From NCBI GenBank assembly GCA_003167215.1, contig PMTV01000040.1, positions 29,496 to 74,407 on the forward strand: a stretch of 44,912 nt of DNA, in the 5' to 3' direction. The stretch comes from Acidobacteriota bacterium. Lineage in GTDB: Bacteria; Acidobacteriota; Terriglobia; Acidiferrales; UBA7541. The notes beneath the pieces were generated by a model. The model was given only the letters and a program-made list of their open reading frames with translations. It did no database searches and was not told where the DNA came from. A program made the position numbers and the translations under genes. Below, in pieces: positions 37,058-43,939 of this stretch. The first letter of the stretch is position 1. Each line of letters starts with the position of its first letter.

Positions 37058-39166
37058 TCAGCTGAGGACTGTTTGTGATATCCCGGTTGCAAGCAGCTTG
37101 GCAAACTGCTCAGGAAGCAGCGGCCGGCTGAAAAAGTATCCTTGCGCCTCATCACATTGGTGAGCCTGAAGAAACGCCAGCTCCTCTTGCGTCTCCACGC
37201 CCTCAGCAACGACCCGCAGCTTAAGGCTGCGGCCCATGCTGATTACCGCGGTCACGATGGTCGTCTCGTCGGGAGCGGTAGTGATCTGGCGGACAAACGA
37301 CTGGTCGATCTTGAGCGCGTCGATCGGAAACTTCCTTAGATAGCTCAAACTGGAGTAGCCCGTGCCAAAGTCATCTACCGCAACCTGAACTCCCGTCGCC
37401 CTTAGTGTCTTGAGGATGGATCCCGTGGAGTCAACACGCTTCATAAGAACGCTTTCGGTCAACTCCAGCTCAAGAGATCTCGGATCCAGGCCCGTCTCCT
37501 TGAGGACTGCGAATACACCATCCAGAAAGCGCTCGTCTCGAAACTCGATTGCGGAGATATTCACCGCAATGGTAGCCAGCGGCAGGCCTGCATGCCTCCA
37601 AGCCTGAGCTTGCTTGCACGCTTCACGCAGGACCCAATTGCCAATTGGCAAAATGAGCCCGCAGTCTTCCGCGGTGGGAATGAATTGGGCCGGGGAAACC
37701 GGCCCTCGAGTGGGATGGGTCCAACGTATCAACGCTTCGGCCCCGGTAATCTCGCCTGTCCTCAGATTGATTATGGGCTGGTATTGCAGCGCAAATTCCT
37801 GTCGTTCCAAGGCACGCCGCAGGCTCTCCTCGATGGATTGCCGCTCCACGGCGCGGACGTTCATGGCCGGCATGAAAAACTTATAACTCTGATGACCATT
37901 TTCCTTCGCCTGGTACATCGCGGTGTCCGCATTCTTGATGAGCGTTTCGGCATCCAGGCCATCGTCGGGATAGATGCTTAGGCCAATGCTGGCAGTGACG
38001 TGAAGGACGTGTTGGCCGATCGAGTGAGCTTCCGCTACCGCCTGCAACATTCTTTGAGCCGTAATAGCAGCATCGTCCGCCTGGTCCACTTCTGAAAGCA
38101 GCACGACGAATTCATCGCCTCCTTGCCGGCTTACCGTGTCCGAGCTGCGTCCACAACTCACTAAACATTTTGCGATGGATTGAAGAAGTTTGTCGCCGAT
38201 CGGATGTCCCAGGGAATCGTTGATGTGTTTGAAGCCATCCAGATCCAAAAACAGCAATGCGACCTTTTTCAAATGACGCTGCGCCAAGGCGATCGCCTGG
38301 CTTACCCGGTCGTTCAGCAGCATTCGATTGGGCAAACCGGTCAGGAAGTCGTGCTGGGCCGAATGGGCCATCTCGAGCGCCATCGCCTGGGCCACACTCA
38401 CATCGCGGAAAACAATTACCGCTCCGATAACCGTTCCTTCCCGGTTGTGGATAGGGGAGACGGAGTCCTCGATCGGAATTTCAATTCCGTCACGCTGGAC
38501 CAGGAGACAGTTCAATGGCAGATGCACGGTACGGTTTTTTCTAACTGCGAGCTCCGTGGGATTTGCAACGGTTGCGCGGCTCGTAGCGTCGATGATTCGG
38601 AAAACTTCGGCCATGGACCGGCCTTCCGCTTCTTCGTGCGACCAGTTCGTCATTCTTTCTGCAACGAGATTGAGGTAGGTGATATTTCCCGAAATGTTGG
38701 CACAAATGACGGCGTCGCCGATGGAGTTGAGCGTGACCAGGGCGCGTTCTTTTTCTAAGAATAAGGCTTCTTCCATGATCTTGCGCTCGACAGCGTGGCG
38801 CAGGGCTCGCAGAAGCCCGCGTGCCTCGATATGGCCCTTGATGAGATAGTCTTGCGCGCCTACTTGCAAGGCTTGTGCGGCCAGCGACTCGTCGTCCGAT
38901 ACCGTCAGCACTACCAGGGGGACGTGGGGCGCGGCCGCACAAACGCGCCGAACCGCTTCCAGTCCTTGTGCGTCTGGCAATCCCAGGTCGAGTAAGATTA
39001 TGTCGACCGCATGCTCGGCAACATACTTCTCGGCCTCACTCACCGATTCCGTGTGCCTGAATTCGGTGTTGTTCAAGCCCTCCCCTTTGAACATCTCGAG
39101 GAACAATCGGGCGTCTCCGGGATTGTCTTCAATTAGGAGAAGGTTCTTGATCAATTTCTTCCACAT
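37058..39166 (-). CDS. Receiver-PAS-GGDEF-EAL signalling protein
   Basis: About 702 residues from ATG 39166 with a GAGAGGT ribosome site. It starts with a receiver domain (Asp60 in DIILLDLGLPD), followed by PAS (about 150-265), GGDEF and EAL. The active site GGDEF and the inhibitory RSSD site five residues before it are intact, as are EALIRWTHP, DDFGTGYSSL, the IDQSFV lysine region and VAEGVET of the EAL phosphodiesterase. The protein can therefore both make and break cyclic di-GMP, controlled by phosphorylation of the receiver. It is the last gene of the relay operon; a deletion lies immediately upstream. Confidence 0.94.
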   Translation of the reverse strand: MWKKLIKNLLLIEDNPGDARLFLEMFKGEGLNNTEFRHTESVSEAEKYVAEHAVDIILLDLGLPDAQGLEAVRRVCAAAPHVPLVVLTVSDDESLAAQALQVGAQDYLIKGHIEARGLLRALRHAVERKIMEEALFLEKERALVTLNSIGDAVICANISGNITYLNLVAERMTNWSHEEAEGRSMAEVFRIIDATSRATVANPTELAVRKNRTVHLPLNCLLVQRDGIEIPIEDSVSPIHNREGTVIGAVIVFRDVSVAQAMALEMAHSAQHDFLTGLPNRMLLNDRVSQAIALAQRHLKKVALLFLDLDGFKHINDSLGHPIGDKLLQSIAKCLVSCGRSSDTVSRQGGDEFVVLLSEVDQADDAAITAQRMLQAVAEAHSIGQHVLHVTASIGLSIYPDDGLDAETLIKNADTAMYQAKENGHQSYKFFMPAMNVRAVERQSIEESLRRALERQEFALQYQPIINLRTGEITGAEALIRWTHPTRGPVSPAQFIPTAEDCGLILPIGNWVLREACKQAQAWRHAGLPLATIAVNISAIEFRDERFLDGVFAVLKETGLDPRSLELELTESVLMKRVDSTGSILKTLRATGVQVAVDDFGTGYSSLSYLRKFPIDALKIDQSFVRQITTAPDETTIVTAVISMGRSLKLRVVAEGVETQEELAFLQAHQCDEAQGYFFSRPLLPEQFAKLLATGISQTVLS

Positions 39167-39171
39167 CTGCC

Positions 39172-39270
39172 TTACCTCTCCGGCGGCAGGTTGAACTTGG
39201 CCCGCCTGAAATTCCTGATGTTCTTCACCCAACTCGCGAACGTGTTCAACTGCACGGGCTTGGTCCGAAT
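39172..39270 (-). pseudogene. C-terminal relic of a CheY-like receiver
   Basis: In a frame not joined to a start codon, 32 codons read IRTKPVQLNTFASWVKNIRN and end FNLPPER at TAA 39172. This matches the end of Rcp1-type receivers (compare ITKPVDLKGFLNVVKSIDNF in the gene at 39818). Its N-terminal counterpart, LIEDKPGEMRLT, is the end of the previous gene in another frame, so an internal deletion has joined the two. Confidence 0.75.
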
Positions 39271-39818
39271 GCCTCCGGCGTCAGCCGCATCTCCCCGGGT
39301 TTGTCCTCGATGAGAGGTGAGTTACCGCCTGAATGACTCCCGCGATCGGCGGGAACAACAAACACATGTGAGAGGAACTCATCCTTGAAGCGGATCTGAT
39401 CTGTCCGAATGAGGTCGGTTTCTGTTTGCAGGCGGTGGCGCTCGATGGCATGCCGAAGAGCCCGAGGAAGCGCACGATTTTCGATCTGCCCTTTGATCAG
39501 ATAGTCTTGAGCGCCCGACTTCATGGCTTCGGCGGCCAGTGCCTCATCGTCCAAGCCTGTTAGCACGATTACGGGGACGTTAGGAGCGACCGCATGCGTC
39601 CGCCGCACGGTATCGAGACCATGCCCGTCCGGCAAGCCCATATCCAAGAGCACGATGTCTACTCCACCTTTCGCAAGATGAACGGTGGCTTCACTCATGC
39701 GCAAGAGATGCGTCAATTCGAAACTGTCCGGTTTCTCCTTACTGAACATCTCGCGCAGCAAACGGGCATCCTCCGCGTTATCCTCAACCAGAAGAACCTG
39801 CAGTGCTTTTTCTTTCAT
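39246..39818 (-). CDS. Receiver-domain protein with truncated kinase stub
   Basis: A 190-residue product. Residues 1-125 form an intact receiver (MKEKALQVLLVEDNAEDARL, phospho-acceptor Asp59 in DIVLLDMGLPD, Lys109 in YLIKG). After helix 5 comes RFKDEFLSHV (143-152), which in full-length relatives continues HELR as the histidine kinase start, but here it breaks off into an unrelated run ending LIEDKPGEMRLTPEAF, the start of another receiver. So a deletion removed the kinase domain and part of a further receiver. The gene starts in a TGATG junction with the upstream receiver gene. The receiver may still work alone. Confidence 0.8.
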   Translation of the reverse strand: MKEKALQVLLVEDNAEDARLLREMFSKEKPDSFELTHLLRMSEATVHLAKGGVDIVLLDMGLPDGHGLDTVRRTHAVAPNVPVIVLTGLDDEALAAEAMKSGAQDYLIKGQIENRALPRALRHAIERHRLQTETDLIRTDQIRFKDEFLSHVFVVPADRGSHSGGNSPLIEDKPGEMRLTPEAFGPSPCS

Positions 39819-40276
39819 CAGCGTGCTTCGTGTGGCAACTTGACTACCGACAGCCAGAAATTATCGATGCTCTTTACAACGTTGAGAAATCCCTTTAGGT
39901 CTACAGGCTTGGTGATGTAGCAGTTCGCATGGAGCAGATAACTCCTCAGAATATCCGCGTCAGACGCCGAGGTAGTCAAGATAACCACGGGAATGCTTTT
40001 CAGCGTCGGACTCTGCTTGATTTCCTCCAAGACCTCCCGACCATCTTTCTTGGGCAGGTTCAGATCGAGCAAGATCAGATCCGGGCGGGGAGCGTTGGTG
40101 TGTCCCCCCTCGCGCTTAAGAAAGGCCATTGCTTCTGTCCCATCTGACGCAACGTGCAAATTGATAAGCACTTTGGCGTCTTTGAACGCCTCTCGCGTAA
40201 GCCGTACATCGCCGGGACTATCCTCAACCAAAAGAACTTCCATCGGTTTAGCATCCGTGCCAATCGACTCCATCAT
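39818..40276 (-). CDS. Rcp1-type single-domain response regulator
   Basis: A 152-residue CheY-like receiver of the type paired with phytochrome-like kinases. Phospho-acceptor Asp71 lies in LILLDLNLPKKDG; Thr in VVILTTSASDADI and Lys in YITKPVDLKG complete the site. The ATG at 40276 overlaps the kinase stop (ATGA); the adjacent ATG at 40273 is equally possible. It should receive phosphate from the kinase just upstream. Confidence 0.93.
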   Translation of the reverse strand: MMESIGTDAKPMEVLLVEDSPGDVRLTREAFKDAKVLINLHVASDGTEAMAFLKREGGHTNAPRPDLILLDLNLPKKDGREVLEEIKQSPTLKSIPVVILTTSASDADILRSYLLHANCYITKPVDLKGFLNVVKSIDNFWLSVVKLPHEAR

Positions 40277-40986
40277 TTCCCATCCTTTTCCGGCAGTGCA
40301 AAGTGGAAGGTCGAGCCCTTCTCGGGTTGCGACTCGACCCAGATTCTCCCGCCCAGCCACTCCAGCATCTTTTTGCAAATTGCCAATCCAATTCCGGTGC
40401 CTTTGAACTCTGCTTGCCCGTGCAAACGCTGGAAAAGGACGAAGATCCTGTCGAAGTATTGAGGATCGATTCCCAGACCGTTGTCTCGCACAGAAAAAAT
40501 CCATTCATCGCCGCCGTTTTTCACAGCGGAAATATGCACGTTAGGGACTGCGGCACTGCGATACTTGATCGCATTTCCGATGAGGTTCTGAAATATCTGG
40601 GCCAATTGTGTCCCGTCCGTTGTGATGAGTGGCAGCGGGTCGTGAGTCACAATCGCACCGCTTTCCTGAATCGTTGCTCGTAAGTTTACGAGCGCCTCTT
40701 TCAATGCATTTTCGCTGGGTATTTTGCGGAGCGCCTTTCCGTTTGTCCCTGCCCGCGAATAGGCCAGAAGATCCTGGATCAGCCCTTGCATGCGGTTGGA
40801 CCCGTCAACTGCATAAGCGATGAACTCATCCGCATCGGAGTCCAAACGCCCTTTGTAGCGCTCGGCCAGGAGCTGCGTATAACTCGCCACCATGCGCAAC
40901 GGCTCCTGGAGATCGTGTGAAGCGAGATAGGCGAATTGCTGAAGTTCATCATTGGAACGCTTCAATTCCGCAACCGTCTTTACCAA
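40273..40986 (-). CDS. Histidine kinase core, split from its sensor by a stop codon
   Basis: A 237-residue frame starting at a TTG (40986) with HisKA His24 in FAYLASHDLQEPLRM and an ATP-binding domain with NLIGNAIKY, DNGLGID and GTGIGLAICKK. The five codons between the TTG and the upstream TAA (41002-41004) continue the same frame as the PAS gene. Relatives read through here as ER-K-RxEqHL, so an AAA-to-TAA change probably split one PAS-PAS-kinase gene. The kinase could still be made by re-initiation at the TTG; no strong ribosome site is seen. Confidence 0.85.
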   Translation of the reverse strand: MVKTVAELKRSNDELQQFAYLASHDLQEPLRMVASYTQLLAERYKGRLDSDADEFIAYAVDGSNRMQGLIQDLLAYSRAGTNGKALRKIPSENALKEALVNLRATIQESGAIVTHDPLPLITTDGTQLAQIFQNLIGNAIKYRSAAVPNVHISAVKNGGDEWIFSVRDNGLGIDPQYFDRIFVLFQRLHGQAEFKGTGIGLAICKKMLEWLGGRIWVESQPEKGSTFHFALPEKDGK

Positions 40987-41001
40987 GTGCTGCTCGGATC
41001 T

Positions 41002-41823
41002 TTAGCGTTCGGTGATGTTCCGGATCGCCGCAGTCACCAGAATTCCTTCCGTGCTTTCCAGCGGGCTCAGCATGATCTCGATTGGAAATTCGCTCCCATC
41101 CTTCCGCCTCCCATTGAGCTCAATCCCGGTTCCGATCTGCTGCGCCAACGCGTCTTCGGCGGATCGAAGCCCGTCTGCCACCAGCCGTTCCGCGAAGCCT
41201 TCCGGGATGATGTTCTTTACCTTCTGACCGACGAGTTCATCACGGTGGTATCCGAACTGTTTCTCCGCCTGAACATTCAACAGGACGATCTCTCCGGCCT
41301 GATTCACCACCACCATTGCATCCGGGGCCGCCTCCAAGAGCCCTCGGTACTTCGCTCCCGACTCTTTGCTCTCGCTGAGATCGTGGCTGAACTCCGAAAA
41401 CCCACGCAGGTTTCCGTTTGGATCGCGCAACGCCGTAAACGTGAGACTTGCTAAGAATCGTGACCCGTCTTTTCGCACACGCATGCCTTGCTCTTCGCGT
41501 CGGCCGCTTGCGGCAGTCATCCGGAGTGTCTCCTCCGGCCTGCCACGCTGGATATCTTCCGGGGGAAAGAAGCAGGAAAAGTTCTGACCGATGATCTGAT
41601 CAGCTCGGTAACCCTTAATTCGTTCGGCACCGGCATTCCAGCTGAGAATCTGGCCTCGCGGATCCATCATGAAGATTGCATAATCCTGAATTCCATCGAC
41701 GAGCATCCGATATCTTTCTTCGCTTTCTCGGAGCGCCTCCTCCGCAACCCGGCGTTCCCCCATTTGCGCCAGATGCTGTTCTGCAGCCTCGCGCGCGCTA
41801 GTGTCTTTCGTCGCTGCCGTCAT
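41002..41823 (-). CDS. PAS-PAS sensor half of the split kinase
   Basis: A 273-residue protein. It starts with a coiled linker (REAAEQHLAQMGERRVAEEA), then PAS 1 (about 36-155, YRMLVDGIQDYAIFMMDPRG, GFSEFSHDLSESKE) and PAS 2 (about 158-273, YRGLLEAAPDAMVVVNQAGE, ending ILVTAAIRNITER). It stops at TAA 41002. Without the kinase the product is a sensor with no output; joined with the 40273-40986 frame it would be a normal 516-residue PAS-PAS histidine kinase. A small upstream frame overlaps its start by four bases. Confidence 0.85.
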   Translation of the reverse strand: MTAATKDTSAREAAEQHLAQMGERRVAEEALRESEERYRMLVDGIQDYAIFMMDPRGQILSWNAGAERIKGYRADQIIGQNFSCFFPPEDIQRGRPEETLRMTAASGRREEQGMRVRKDGSRFLASLTFTALRDPNGNLRGFSEFSHDLSESKESGAKYRGLLEAAPDAMVVVNQAGEIVLLNVQAEKQFGYHRDELVGQKVKNIIPEGFAERLVADGLRSAEDALAQQIGTGIELNGRRKDGSEFPIEIMLSPLESTEGILVTAAIRNITER

Positions 41824-42017
41824 CGAGATTCCCTTCGCGGCTTCCCTGGGAACGTGAGCAGGTGCTCAATGACCTGCTTGATGTGCCGCGCACACCGATT
41901 GCCTTCACTGGATAAGACGATGTCATGAATAGAAATCGAACTCACTGTCAGTGGGGCGAAATTCCCTAGCCCGAACGCGAGTTTCGGTTTCCGATTCAAC
42001 GGAGACTTGTTTCTCAT
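41820..42017 (-). CDS. Possible small protein upstream of the sensor gene
   Basis: A 65-residue frame whose stop overlaps the PAS gene start in ATGA. It reads MRNKSPLNRKPKLAFGLGNF at the start and HIKQVIEHLLTFPGKPRRES near the end. No known family and no clear ribosome site. The overlap is the only sign that it is real; it may be a leader peptide or chance. Confidence 0.3.
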   Translation of the reverse strand: MRNKSPLNRKPKLAFGLGNFAPLTVSSISIHDIVLSSEGNRCARHIKQVIEHLLTFPGKPRRESR

Positions 42018-42117
42018 TTCACACTAGATTGGGAATGAAAATTCTATTCGGGACACGACCCAGAAGGCTGAAGAGGGCAGCCTGTAGCCGTATGTCGATT
42101 TTTTGGAAGGGAGTCCA

Positions 42118-42145
42118 ATTCTATAACAGCCTTATGCAAGGACAA
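42118..42145 (-). promoter_or_regulatory. Possible promoter of the signalling operon
   Basis: TTGTCC (42140-42145) and TAGAAT (42118-42123) on the minus strand with a 16-base spacer, about 100 bases before the small frame and 290 before the PAS gene. Confidence 0.35.
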
Positions 42146-42308
42146 GCGGATTCGCAGGCAGGTGTCCAATAGACCACGAGCGCAGAACTTTTACCCGTGA
42201 ATATCTGAAACTCAAACGAGCCGGATGCATCTTGCCAGGGCGCCGTGCATGCCACGGGCTCGGAGTCCACAAATTCGCAAATTAAGCTAGAATAAAACTC
42301 AATTATGT

Positions 42309-42352
42309 CGGGGCGTAGCGCAGCCTGGTAGCGCGCCTGCCTTGGGCGCGGA
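42309..42352 (+). pseudogene. Broken tRNA-Pro (TGG) gene
   Basis: The 5' half is a normal tRNA-Pro: acceptor CGGGGCG, D arm GCGC-AGCCTGGTA-GCGC, anticodon 5' stem CCTGC and loop CTTGGGC (anticodon TGG). After it the expected GCAGG stem, T arm and CGCCCCG acceptor strand are missing; the sequence goes into GCGGACCGACCGACTCC. It cannot fold as a tRNA and marks an old deletion or insertion. Confidence 0.75.
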
Positions 42353-42509
42353 CCGACCGACTCCAACAGCTCCATTCCCTATTTTGGCTACTCTGTGTTT
42401 TCAGTAATTTGGGGAATCTGCTTTTCGCTCAAAGCTAACCCCAATGGCATGAAGACGTCGGATTCTGGCACAGTTTTGGCACAGGGGACGCGCCTGCTTT
42501 TGCAGCAGT

Positions 42510-42635: not shown

Positions 42636-43871
42636 TCACCGCAGATCTCTGACAAAGGTCAGTGTCGAGGCTGCAAAGCTCGCCTCAGCGTTTCGCTGCT
42701 CTGATTCTTCTTCGAACTCTTCCGGCGGACGGTAGCCTAGCGCTGAATGTAAACGGCGTCGATTGTAATAGTGTTCGATGAATTCCTCGACGCTCTCCAC
42801 CAAGTGTCCCAAATCGCGGTACTCGTTGGCGTAAATCTCCTCACGTTTCAGTGTCTTCATAAAGCTTTCGCAACTGGCGTTGTCATAGGGATTCCCTGGC
42901 CGACTCATGCTCGGCATCATCTGGTGATCCCGAAGCACCTGGATGTAATCTTCGCAAGCGTATTGCACACCTCGGTCGGAGTGGTGAACTAGTCCAGGAG
43001 GCGGTTGTCGATTCGCAATCGCCTTTTCTAACGCGTTGAGCGGAAGCCTAGACTGCAAGGTTCGGCCGAGCGACCACCCCACCACCTTGCGGGAAAAGGC
43101 GTCGAGGACCACCGCCAAATAGACGAACTCCGTCTTCAGGCGAACGTAGGTCATATCCGCGATCCATAGCTGATTCGGACCGAACACTTTCACGCGACTG
43201 GCCAGGTTGAGATAAATCTCCATCTCGTCGTTCCGATCTGTTGCGAGCAAGACTTCACGGTCCTGAATCTCCAATAGGTTGTCCGCCCGCATCATTCGCG
43301 CCACCTGTTTGTGGTTCACCATCATCCCTCGCCGCCGAAGTTCCGCCGTGACCCGTCGATAGCCGTAGCGTCGGCGATGTTCTACGACAATCTCCTGAAT
43401 GGCAGATCGTACGATCATGCACTCCTCGACAGGCGTCCGCCCTTGCAGGTAGCGATAAAATCCCGCTCGGCTTACCTGCGCCAACTGACACATCCGCTCG
43501 ATGCTCAAGCTGCCTTGCAACCGCGTCTCGGATTTCATCGTAGACGCCTTTTCGCCAGAGATATCGCCCTTCTGGCGTCGAGCCTCGACTTTTTGCAAGG
43601 CACCTCTGAAAAAATCCACTTCCACCGTTTTGTCCGCCAGTAACCGTTTGAGCTTGCTGATTTCCTTACGAAGCGTGGATTCCCGGGAATTCGGAAGCGT
43701 TAGCTCACCATCAGCATCCGCTGGGTCCACTTGATCCCGCCACTTGTACAACAGCCTGCGATGAACGCCCAGTTCTCGCGATAGCCTCAGGATGTTCTCG
43801 CACGCGTTCATGCGTTCCACTGTCCGGCAACGGAATTTCTGGCTGTATCGCTCTTTCCATTTTCTTTCCAC
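42636..43871 (-). CDS. IS3-family transposase, OrfA and OrfB in one frame
   Basis: About 411 residues from GTG 43871, which has GGAG seven bases upstream; a TTG at 43892 is an alternative. Residues 1-105 are the OrfA-like helix-turn-helix and leucine-zipper part (LSRELGVHRRLLYKWRDQVD, ISKLKRLLADKTVEVDFFRG). Residues about 120-400 are the DDE integrase: Asp239 in WIADMTYV, Asp299 in HHSDRGVQYA and Glu335 in CESFMKTLKREE, a DD(35)E spacing. In most IS3 elements the two parts are joined by a -1 frameshift; here no shift is needed. The catalytic residues are intact, so the element could be active. Confidence 0.95.
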   Translation of the reverse strand: MERKWKERYSQKFRCRTVERMNACENILRLSRELGVHRRLLYKWRDQVDPADADGELTLPNSRESTLRKEISKLKRLLADKTVEVDFFRGALQKVEARRQKGDISGEKASTMKSETRLQGSLSIERMCQLAQVSRAGFYRYLQGRTPVEECMIVRSAIQEIVVEHRRRYGYRRVTAELRRRGMMVNHKQVARMMRADNLLEIQDREVLLATDRNDEMEIYLNLASRVKVFGPNQLWIADMTYVRLKTEFVYLAVVLDAFSRKVVGWSLGRTLQSRLPLNALEKAIANRQPPPGLVHHSDRGVQYACEDYIQVLRDHQMMPSMSRPGNPYDNASCESFMKTLKREEIYANEYRDLGHLVESVEEFIEHYYNRRRLHSALGYRPPEEFEEESEQRNAEASFAASTLTFVRDLR

Positions 43872-43939
43872 TTTGCGGCTCCTTTCCTGCAAAGTGTGCC
43901 TTATGGAAGTGTCTCAAACTAGGCATTCGCGCACCGGTG

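Follow-up and report, generated by a model that had tools for sequence, protein, structure and literature searches.

A private in-frame stop codon between the sensor and kinase halves of a PAS-PAS histidine kinase gene in an apparently mosaic operon of an Acidobacteriota bacterium

A 44,912-nucleotide stretch of an Acidobacteriota draft genome (GCA_003167215.1, contig PMTV01000040.1, positions 29,496 to 74,407 of the forward strand; the whole stretch is referred to as the window) carries a histidine kinase gene in which a single in-frame TAA parts two PAS domains from the kinase core. Sequence comparisons suggest that this stop is probably a young nonsense allele of a normally fused kinase. 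They further indicate that the operon is a mosaic, with flanks like those of the nearest genus mates and an interior like that of other genera. The interior, designated type 2, comprises the kinase half, a first response regulator (RR1), and the N-terminal receiver of a second (RR2), lies at approximately 39364..41038, and is not common to the comparable genus mates. The kinase gene and the other operon features described below are all on the minus strand.

The first open reading frame (ORF 1; 41002..41823, 273 amino acids) started with ATG 41823, encoded an N-terminal linker, PAS-A, and PAS-B, and ended at TAA 41004-41002 after ...RNITER. This TAA is codon 274 of the joint frame. Directly past it, codon 41001-40999 carried the same frame on as RSEQHLVKTVAELKRSNDEL..., followed by a linker, HisKA, and HATPase_c (40273..41001; 242 codons and TGA 40275-40273), and no further frame break was present across these 242 codons. 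Pfam profiles detected two PAS stretches 5' of the stop, with the PAS-B profile at residues 158-262, and HisKA (1.2e-10) and HATPase_c (1.4e-27) 3' of it. What we take to be the H, N, G1, and G2 motifs were readable in the translation of the kinase half. The 242 open codons and the alignment through the junction to kinases without the stop indicate that the same-frame continuation is more than chance. Sensor, HisKA, and HATPase_c are thus all present in one joint frame that is broken once, and owing to this TAA the gene lacks the uninterrupted sensor-to-kinase frame of a fused kinase. The original prediction, which was made from the sequence alone and described a single in-frame stop splitting a PAS-PAS histidine kinase, was correct in coordinates and translation, although it did not give the strand.

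The position of the stop was compared in 109 loci, after exclusion of two copies of the window. At least four genomes were counted twice in this set, being present in two collections with identical values; G058 and G022, which belong to the window's own family, gave the same values as L032 and L040. Opposite the stop, 85 of the 109 loci had a residue, namely lysine in 59, arginine in 10, and another residue in 16, and none had a stop; 22 further loci had no coverage and two had a gap there, and in some distant loci the linker itself was unlike that of the window. Lysine was therefore the commonest residue, and the earlier description of ITERKRxEqHL as the usual linker was a fair one. The same prediction had named an identical break in orthologues as the result that would speak against it; no conserved split was found in any of the 85 loci. 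The break is private to the window, and kinases without it are the rule, including those of the genus mates L006, L008, L010, and L017, in which the kinase half belongs to the other type. Among named records, the nine best for the kinase half (L032-L040) were titled Acidobacteria, Acidobacteriaceae, or Sulfotelmatobacter in eight cases and Nitrospira in one.

Other candidate breaks were also inspected. In one genus mate (G066, L017), the PAS and kinase frames looked separate, but this was an artefact of an NN assembly gap inside its PAS-B copy. Five of the 109 best matches had one in-frame stop, all at query positions 511-515 at the end of the kinase, and were not comparable. The window's own genome has 43 HATPase_c places, and no stop interrupted any of these HATPase matches, a count that covers the matches themselves.

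The constraint on the kinase half was estimated for the terminal branch of the window from pairwise distances among seven type-2 sequences with 200 bootstraps. The nonsynonymous distance (dN) was 0.0545, the synonymous distance (dS) was 0.523, and dN/dS was 0.104 (95% 0.061-0.172), whereas the six relatives without a stop in that stretch gave 0.108-0.162 and RR1 of the window gave 0.071. The window had four private residues at 157 columns that were invariant in the other six sequences, and each of the others had two to six at its own 155-159 columns. With the RR1 ratio of the window taken as the constrained value, the bootstrap upper bound leaves room for neutral evolution of a silent kinase half over no more than about 11% of the branch. 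The relaxed selection past the break by which a pseudogene is recognized was thus not observed, dN/dS on the window branch being like that of the relatives without a stop; this is expected if the break is young. Two points weigh against such a use of these values: the ratios are rough at pairwise dS of 0.5-1.2, and continued translation of the kinase half would predict a low dN/dS just as well.

A kinase half without decay means that the stop is young, or that the kinase half is still used, or that the stop is not real. In the last case, a consensus or assembly error at one base would have split a gene that encodes one fused kinase in living cells. The source genome is a draft (3.78 Mb in 68 contigs, 95.7% complete), PAS-B is a tandem repeat in relatives, and the draft of G066 mentioned above has its N gap inside PAS-B; the absence of relaxed constraint would also be as expected. 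However, a 601-bp stretch around the stop matched its own genome only once, so that no repeat collapse was visible, the stop lies outside the PAS-B profile, and the contig is 126 kb long. We consider an error unlikely. Should the kinase half still be used, translation might terminate at the TAA and re-initiate at TTG 40986, the first in-frame start past the stop, 15 nt behind it, to give a PAS-PAS protein and a minimal HisKA-HATPase kinase as free proteins, acting together or apart. Split kinases exist, both products would contain whole domains (the HisKA match begins at residue 15 counted from the TTG), and the kinase half has remained constrained. Furthermore, the stop sits in the linker, with whole domains on either side. 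Only nine of the 182 one-step nonsense opportunities in the gene (not counting the stop codon) fall within residues 265-292, roughly the linker, so that a random break would land there about once in twenty. This mildly favors a functional split over random breakage and hence speaks against a simply broken gene. The start itself gave no positive sign of re-initiation, which the original prediction had listed as an option. The Shine-Dalgarno energy before TTG 40986 was -2.2, which is also the median value for 507 start-like internal codons (a fraction of 0.50 lay at or below it), although this measure discriminates poorly, since 14 of 23 gene starts reached -2.2 and nine did not. TTG is an ordinary leucine codon, which encodes 20% of the leucines in the 23 gene models, and its position is occupied by CTG, CTT, or CTC in five type-2 relatives, the linker of the sixth (L033) being unlike. 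As the arrangement was also shared by none of the 85 relatives, a functional split seems rather unlikely.

The third option offered earlier, read-through of the stop to yield some full-length kinase, would agree with the same frame being open on either side of the TAA and with the constraint that persists past it. On the other hand, no UAA-reading anticodon (TTA) was present among the 40 tRNA loci found in this 95.7% complete genome, a set that may be incomplete, and TAA terminates 12 of the 23 gene models used, the stop in question included. TAA followed by A is not known as a leaky context. Read-through is accordingly regarded as very improbable. Among the three options of the original prediction, a freshly broken gene fits best, because constraint on the kinase half is not relaxed and most loci compared lack the stop.

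The mosaic nature of the operon was indicated by the change of DNA identity along it. Identity to the genus mate G063 (contig C266), which has the same gene order, was 84% over 41906-40983, 70% over 41350-39482, and 84% over 39262-37092; the values for G069 over the same three stretches were 79, 71, and 80%. G064 showed 86% over the upstream stretch 42349-41149, where its contig ends, and PAS-A of G063 and G064 was 86-87% identical at the protein level. The kinase and receivers, by contrast with the flanks, were 78-83% identical in DNA to operons of other genera (L032, L033, L034, L035, L036, and L040), and in G058 and G022 the interior (82 and 79%) was closer to the window than the PAS part (79 and 74%). 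In protein comparisons, the identity of the kinase half was 78-84% with six type-2 sequences, 75-76% with three others, and 65-69% with eight sequences of type 1; the corresponding values for RR1 were 83-86, 74-78, and 61-68%. In a tree of the kinase half and RR1, a grouping of the window and the four genus mates that could be compared was rejected (log-likelihood lower by 231; P of the approximately unbiased test, p-AU, 7.6e-66), whereas in the tree of the downstream RR-PAS-GGDEF-EAL protein the window paired with G063 (88/98, not starred, with a bootstrap that had not settled). A conflicting phylogeny of the interior between agreeing flanks (84-86% DNA identity to G063 and G064) is the pattern of a horizontal module replacement.

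Several observations weigh against this reading, and its left part is less well supported than its right. G068 showed less contrast along the locus (82% in PAS-B, 71% in the interior, and 72% in the downstream part, where there was little), and L036, which was about 79% identical across PAS and kinase alike, shows no mosaic when taken alone. The PAS-A tree, built on 111 columns, did not reject the grouping of the window with L036 (p-AU 0.115), and PAS-A of the genus mate G069 was only 75% identical, below L009 (83%) and L036 (79%). PAS-B of the window reached only 85%, against 82-83% to genus mates and several others.

The distribution of the module was examined in 95 genomes of the order, with three candidates per genome scored. 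At 1e-100, 14 genomes matched, the window's own included, and the best other genome was G059 with 83%, so that no closer donor was found among these 95. Forms with 68-69% identity occurred in four of 19 genus mates (G063, G066, G068, and G069), and forms with 78-83% in G058, G059, and G022, which belong to other genera. At least 5000 plasmid records matched the module, but among the matches listed all were below 60% identity and were uninformative. The window's own genome yielded no further copy of the kinase, either with the 601-bp stretch around the stop or at 1e-60 with 16 of 46 candidates scored.

The right end of the type-2 module is a scar, as judged from its sequence. RR1 (39818..40276), a single-domain response regulator, begins at ATG 40276 or 40273 and overlaps the kinase TGA. 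It is followed by RR2 (39246..39818), a receiver with an unrelated tail of 38 codons, in which type-2 similarity ends at 39364 inside the H-box (DEFLSHV). Its counterpart in L036 is a receiver-kinase hybrid, and RR2 appears to be a truncated form of such a type-2 hybrid. Next comes a filler of about 100 bp (39263..39363) that could not be placed and of which no second copy was found in its own genome. The filler borders a 3' remnant of the displaced native type-1 receiver gene (39172..39261; 29 codons and a stop), in which KPVQLNTFASWVKNIRNF... matched KPVQFDAFESLVKSINDF... at the end of the receiver of G063. The native RR-PAS-GGDEF-EAL protein (37058..39166; 702 amino acids from ATG 39166) then resumes the genus-like sequence, within the 84% stretch given above.

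The left crossover probably lies within PAS-B, from about 41155 to 41009, according to its informative sites, and the stop is located in the type-2-like linker just past this interval (41009..41155). Of 25 informative sites in PAS-B, 10 were genus-type, 12 type-2, and three neither. The eight sites before 41181 were mixed (three genus-type, three type-2, and two neither), all five from 41181 to 41155 were genus-type, the following eight were six type-2 and then two genus-type, and from 41038 on there were three type-2 and one neither. The place of the crossover is uncertain because these sites are mixed, which weighs against the left part of the mosaic. A collapsed PAS-B repeat was considered and set aside: the stretch around the stop has a single match in its own genome, and a junction inside a hybrid repeat explains the data no less well, although the informative sites are mixed.

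PAS-B proved to be a variable tandem array in relatives: the window and L036 have one copy, G063 and G058 two, G044 three, and G024 and G026 at least five. Copies within one gene were 87-95% identical in DNA between pairs in L005, L009, L034, L045, and L190, and less alike (75-84%) in L007, L184, L185, L187, and L191. These values suggest repeated duplication of PAS-B in some lineages.

From these data, a course of events can be proposed in which the direction of transfer, the order of events, and the left crossover are what we infer, and the mosaic itself is read from the compared sequences. The ancestral operon would have consisted of a PAS array, a type-1 kinase, a receiver, and the RR-PAS-GGDEF-EAL gene. 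Recombination through the shared PAS-B repeat may then have joined a type-2 kinase-receiver module to the downstream end of the native PAS sensor, truncating the hybrid receiver-kinase. The product would have been one cytoplasmic PAS-PAS-HisKA-HATPase sensor kinase. Later, a single nonsense change in the linker between sensor and kinase would have cut this gene, and the allele is presumed young since the kinase half has not yet decayed. The sensor half would now be made as a PAS-PAS protein of 273 amino acids and the kinase core not at all or at a low level, so that the sensor would no longer control the kinase core.

The original prediction had further proposed that the split would change how the downstream receivers are wired. 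This needs qualification in two respects. RR1 has its own ribosome site (Shine-Dalgarno energy -8.3 before ATG 40273 and -5.4 before ATG 40276), and its translation need not depend on that of the kinase. If RR1 is still translated from this site, as its sequence suggests, phosphorylation of the receivers may come from other kinases alone. In addition, the wiring would already have been altered by a larger event, the replacement of the middle of the operon. It is also conceivable that the nonsense change was selected, by uncoupling a wrong sensor from a useful kinase in a mis-wired chimera to yield a free PAS-PAS protein and a re-initiated, signal-independent minimal kinase, and that we caught it early; we hold this to be very doubtful.

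The closest likeness to the window was found in L036 (Acidobacteriaceae metagenome-assembled genome RYN_4), where a cytoplasmic PAS-PAS-HisKA-HATPase_c kinase and then a single-domain receiver follow in the same domain order, with 79% DNA identity over 41738-39364. In L036, unlike in the window, the kinase is fused without a stop, and the second receiver continues into a kinase domain. As for split kinases, CheA3/CheA4 of Rhodobacter sphaeroides is described as a split histidine kinase with its kinase functions on two polypeptides (PMC3591291), but it is cut elsewhere; the cut in the window would part a sensor from a complete kinase core. Similarly, Hik36-Hik43 of Synechocystis is presented as one kinase from two genes that acts with a receiver (PMC7656254). 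That report places it in a chemosensory-type cluster and gives two-hybrid and mutant tests, whereas the window locus is known from its sequence and no relative examined was split. Neither pair is a private nonsense allele, which distinguishes both from the window (PMC3591291, PMC7656254). As for domain swapping and non-orthologous replacement in two-component systems, one paper cites earlier work in which swapping was called relatively rare, a view modified by a later study, and itself describes no clear replacement in its own group (PMC3040137). In the exchanges outlined there, as in the window, sensor or kinase parts are swapped, but in the window the scar and a remnant of the receiver that was displaced are still visible.

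Among the paper titles listed in literature searches, none pointed to this locus or to a PAS kinase split by a nonsense change in this way. The locus is a fresh example of already known kinds and is ordinary as a broken gene. Its interest lies in the setting, namely that of a kinase-receiver module exchanged behind a native PAS sensor, with the scar still visible and a PAS repeat as the apparent crossover site. Provided that the stop is real and widespread in the population, the locus would make it possible to ask whether a swapped kinase is silenced or freed from its sensor, which is the same question as how two-component systems rewire in nature.

Upstream of the PAS gene, the region common to G064 (41824..42349) starts at a truncated tRNA-Pro(TGG) gene, which breaks off after about 40 bases in the window (42305-42349) and is whole at the same place in G064. 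A complete tRNA-Pro(TGG) copy, with a different 5' flank, is located about 6.3 kb from the cut copy; the corresponding coordinates are L188:5800-12200 (C29:71800-78200 on the window's own contig) and L186:1139-1215. Between the two copies are a transposase with IS3-like domains (42639-43892) and two DUF899 genes, and a phage-integrase fragment lies just beyond. This arrangement looks like an element inserted into tRNA-Pro. Within the same upstream region, the stretch 41970-42222, which carries no assigned gene, was examined with Rfam: the window contained only tRNA and tmRNA at the gathering threshold, with no family for this stretch, and a permissive scan of 41850-42400 gave one match to an animal microRNA (E 0.18), which was taken as chance. 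The stretch showed 67-80% DNA similarity in L033, L039, L187, L189, and L191.
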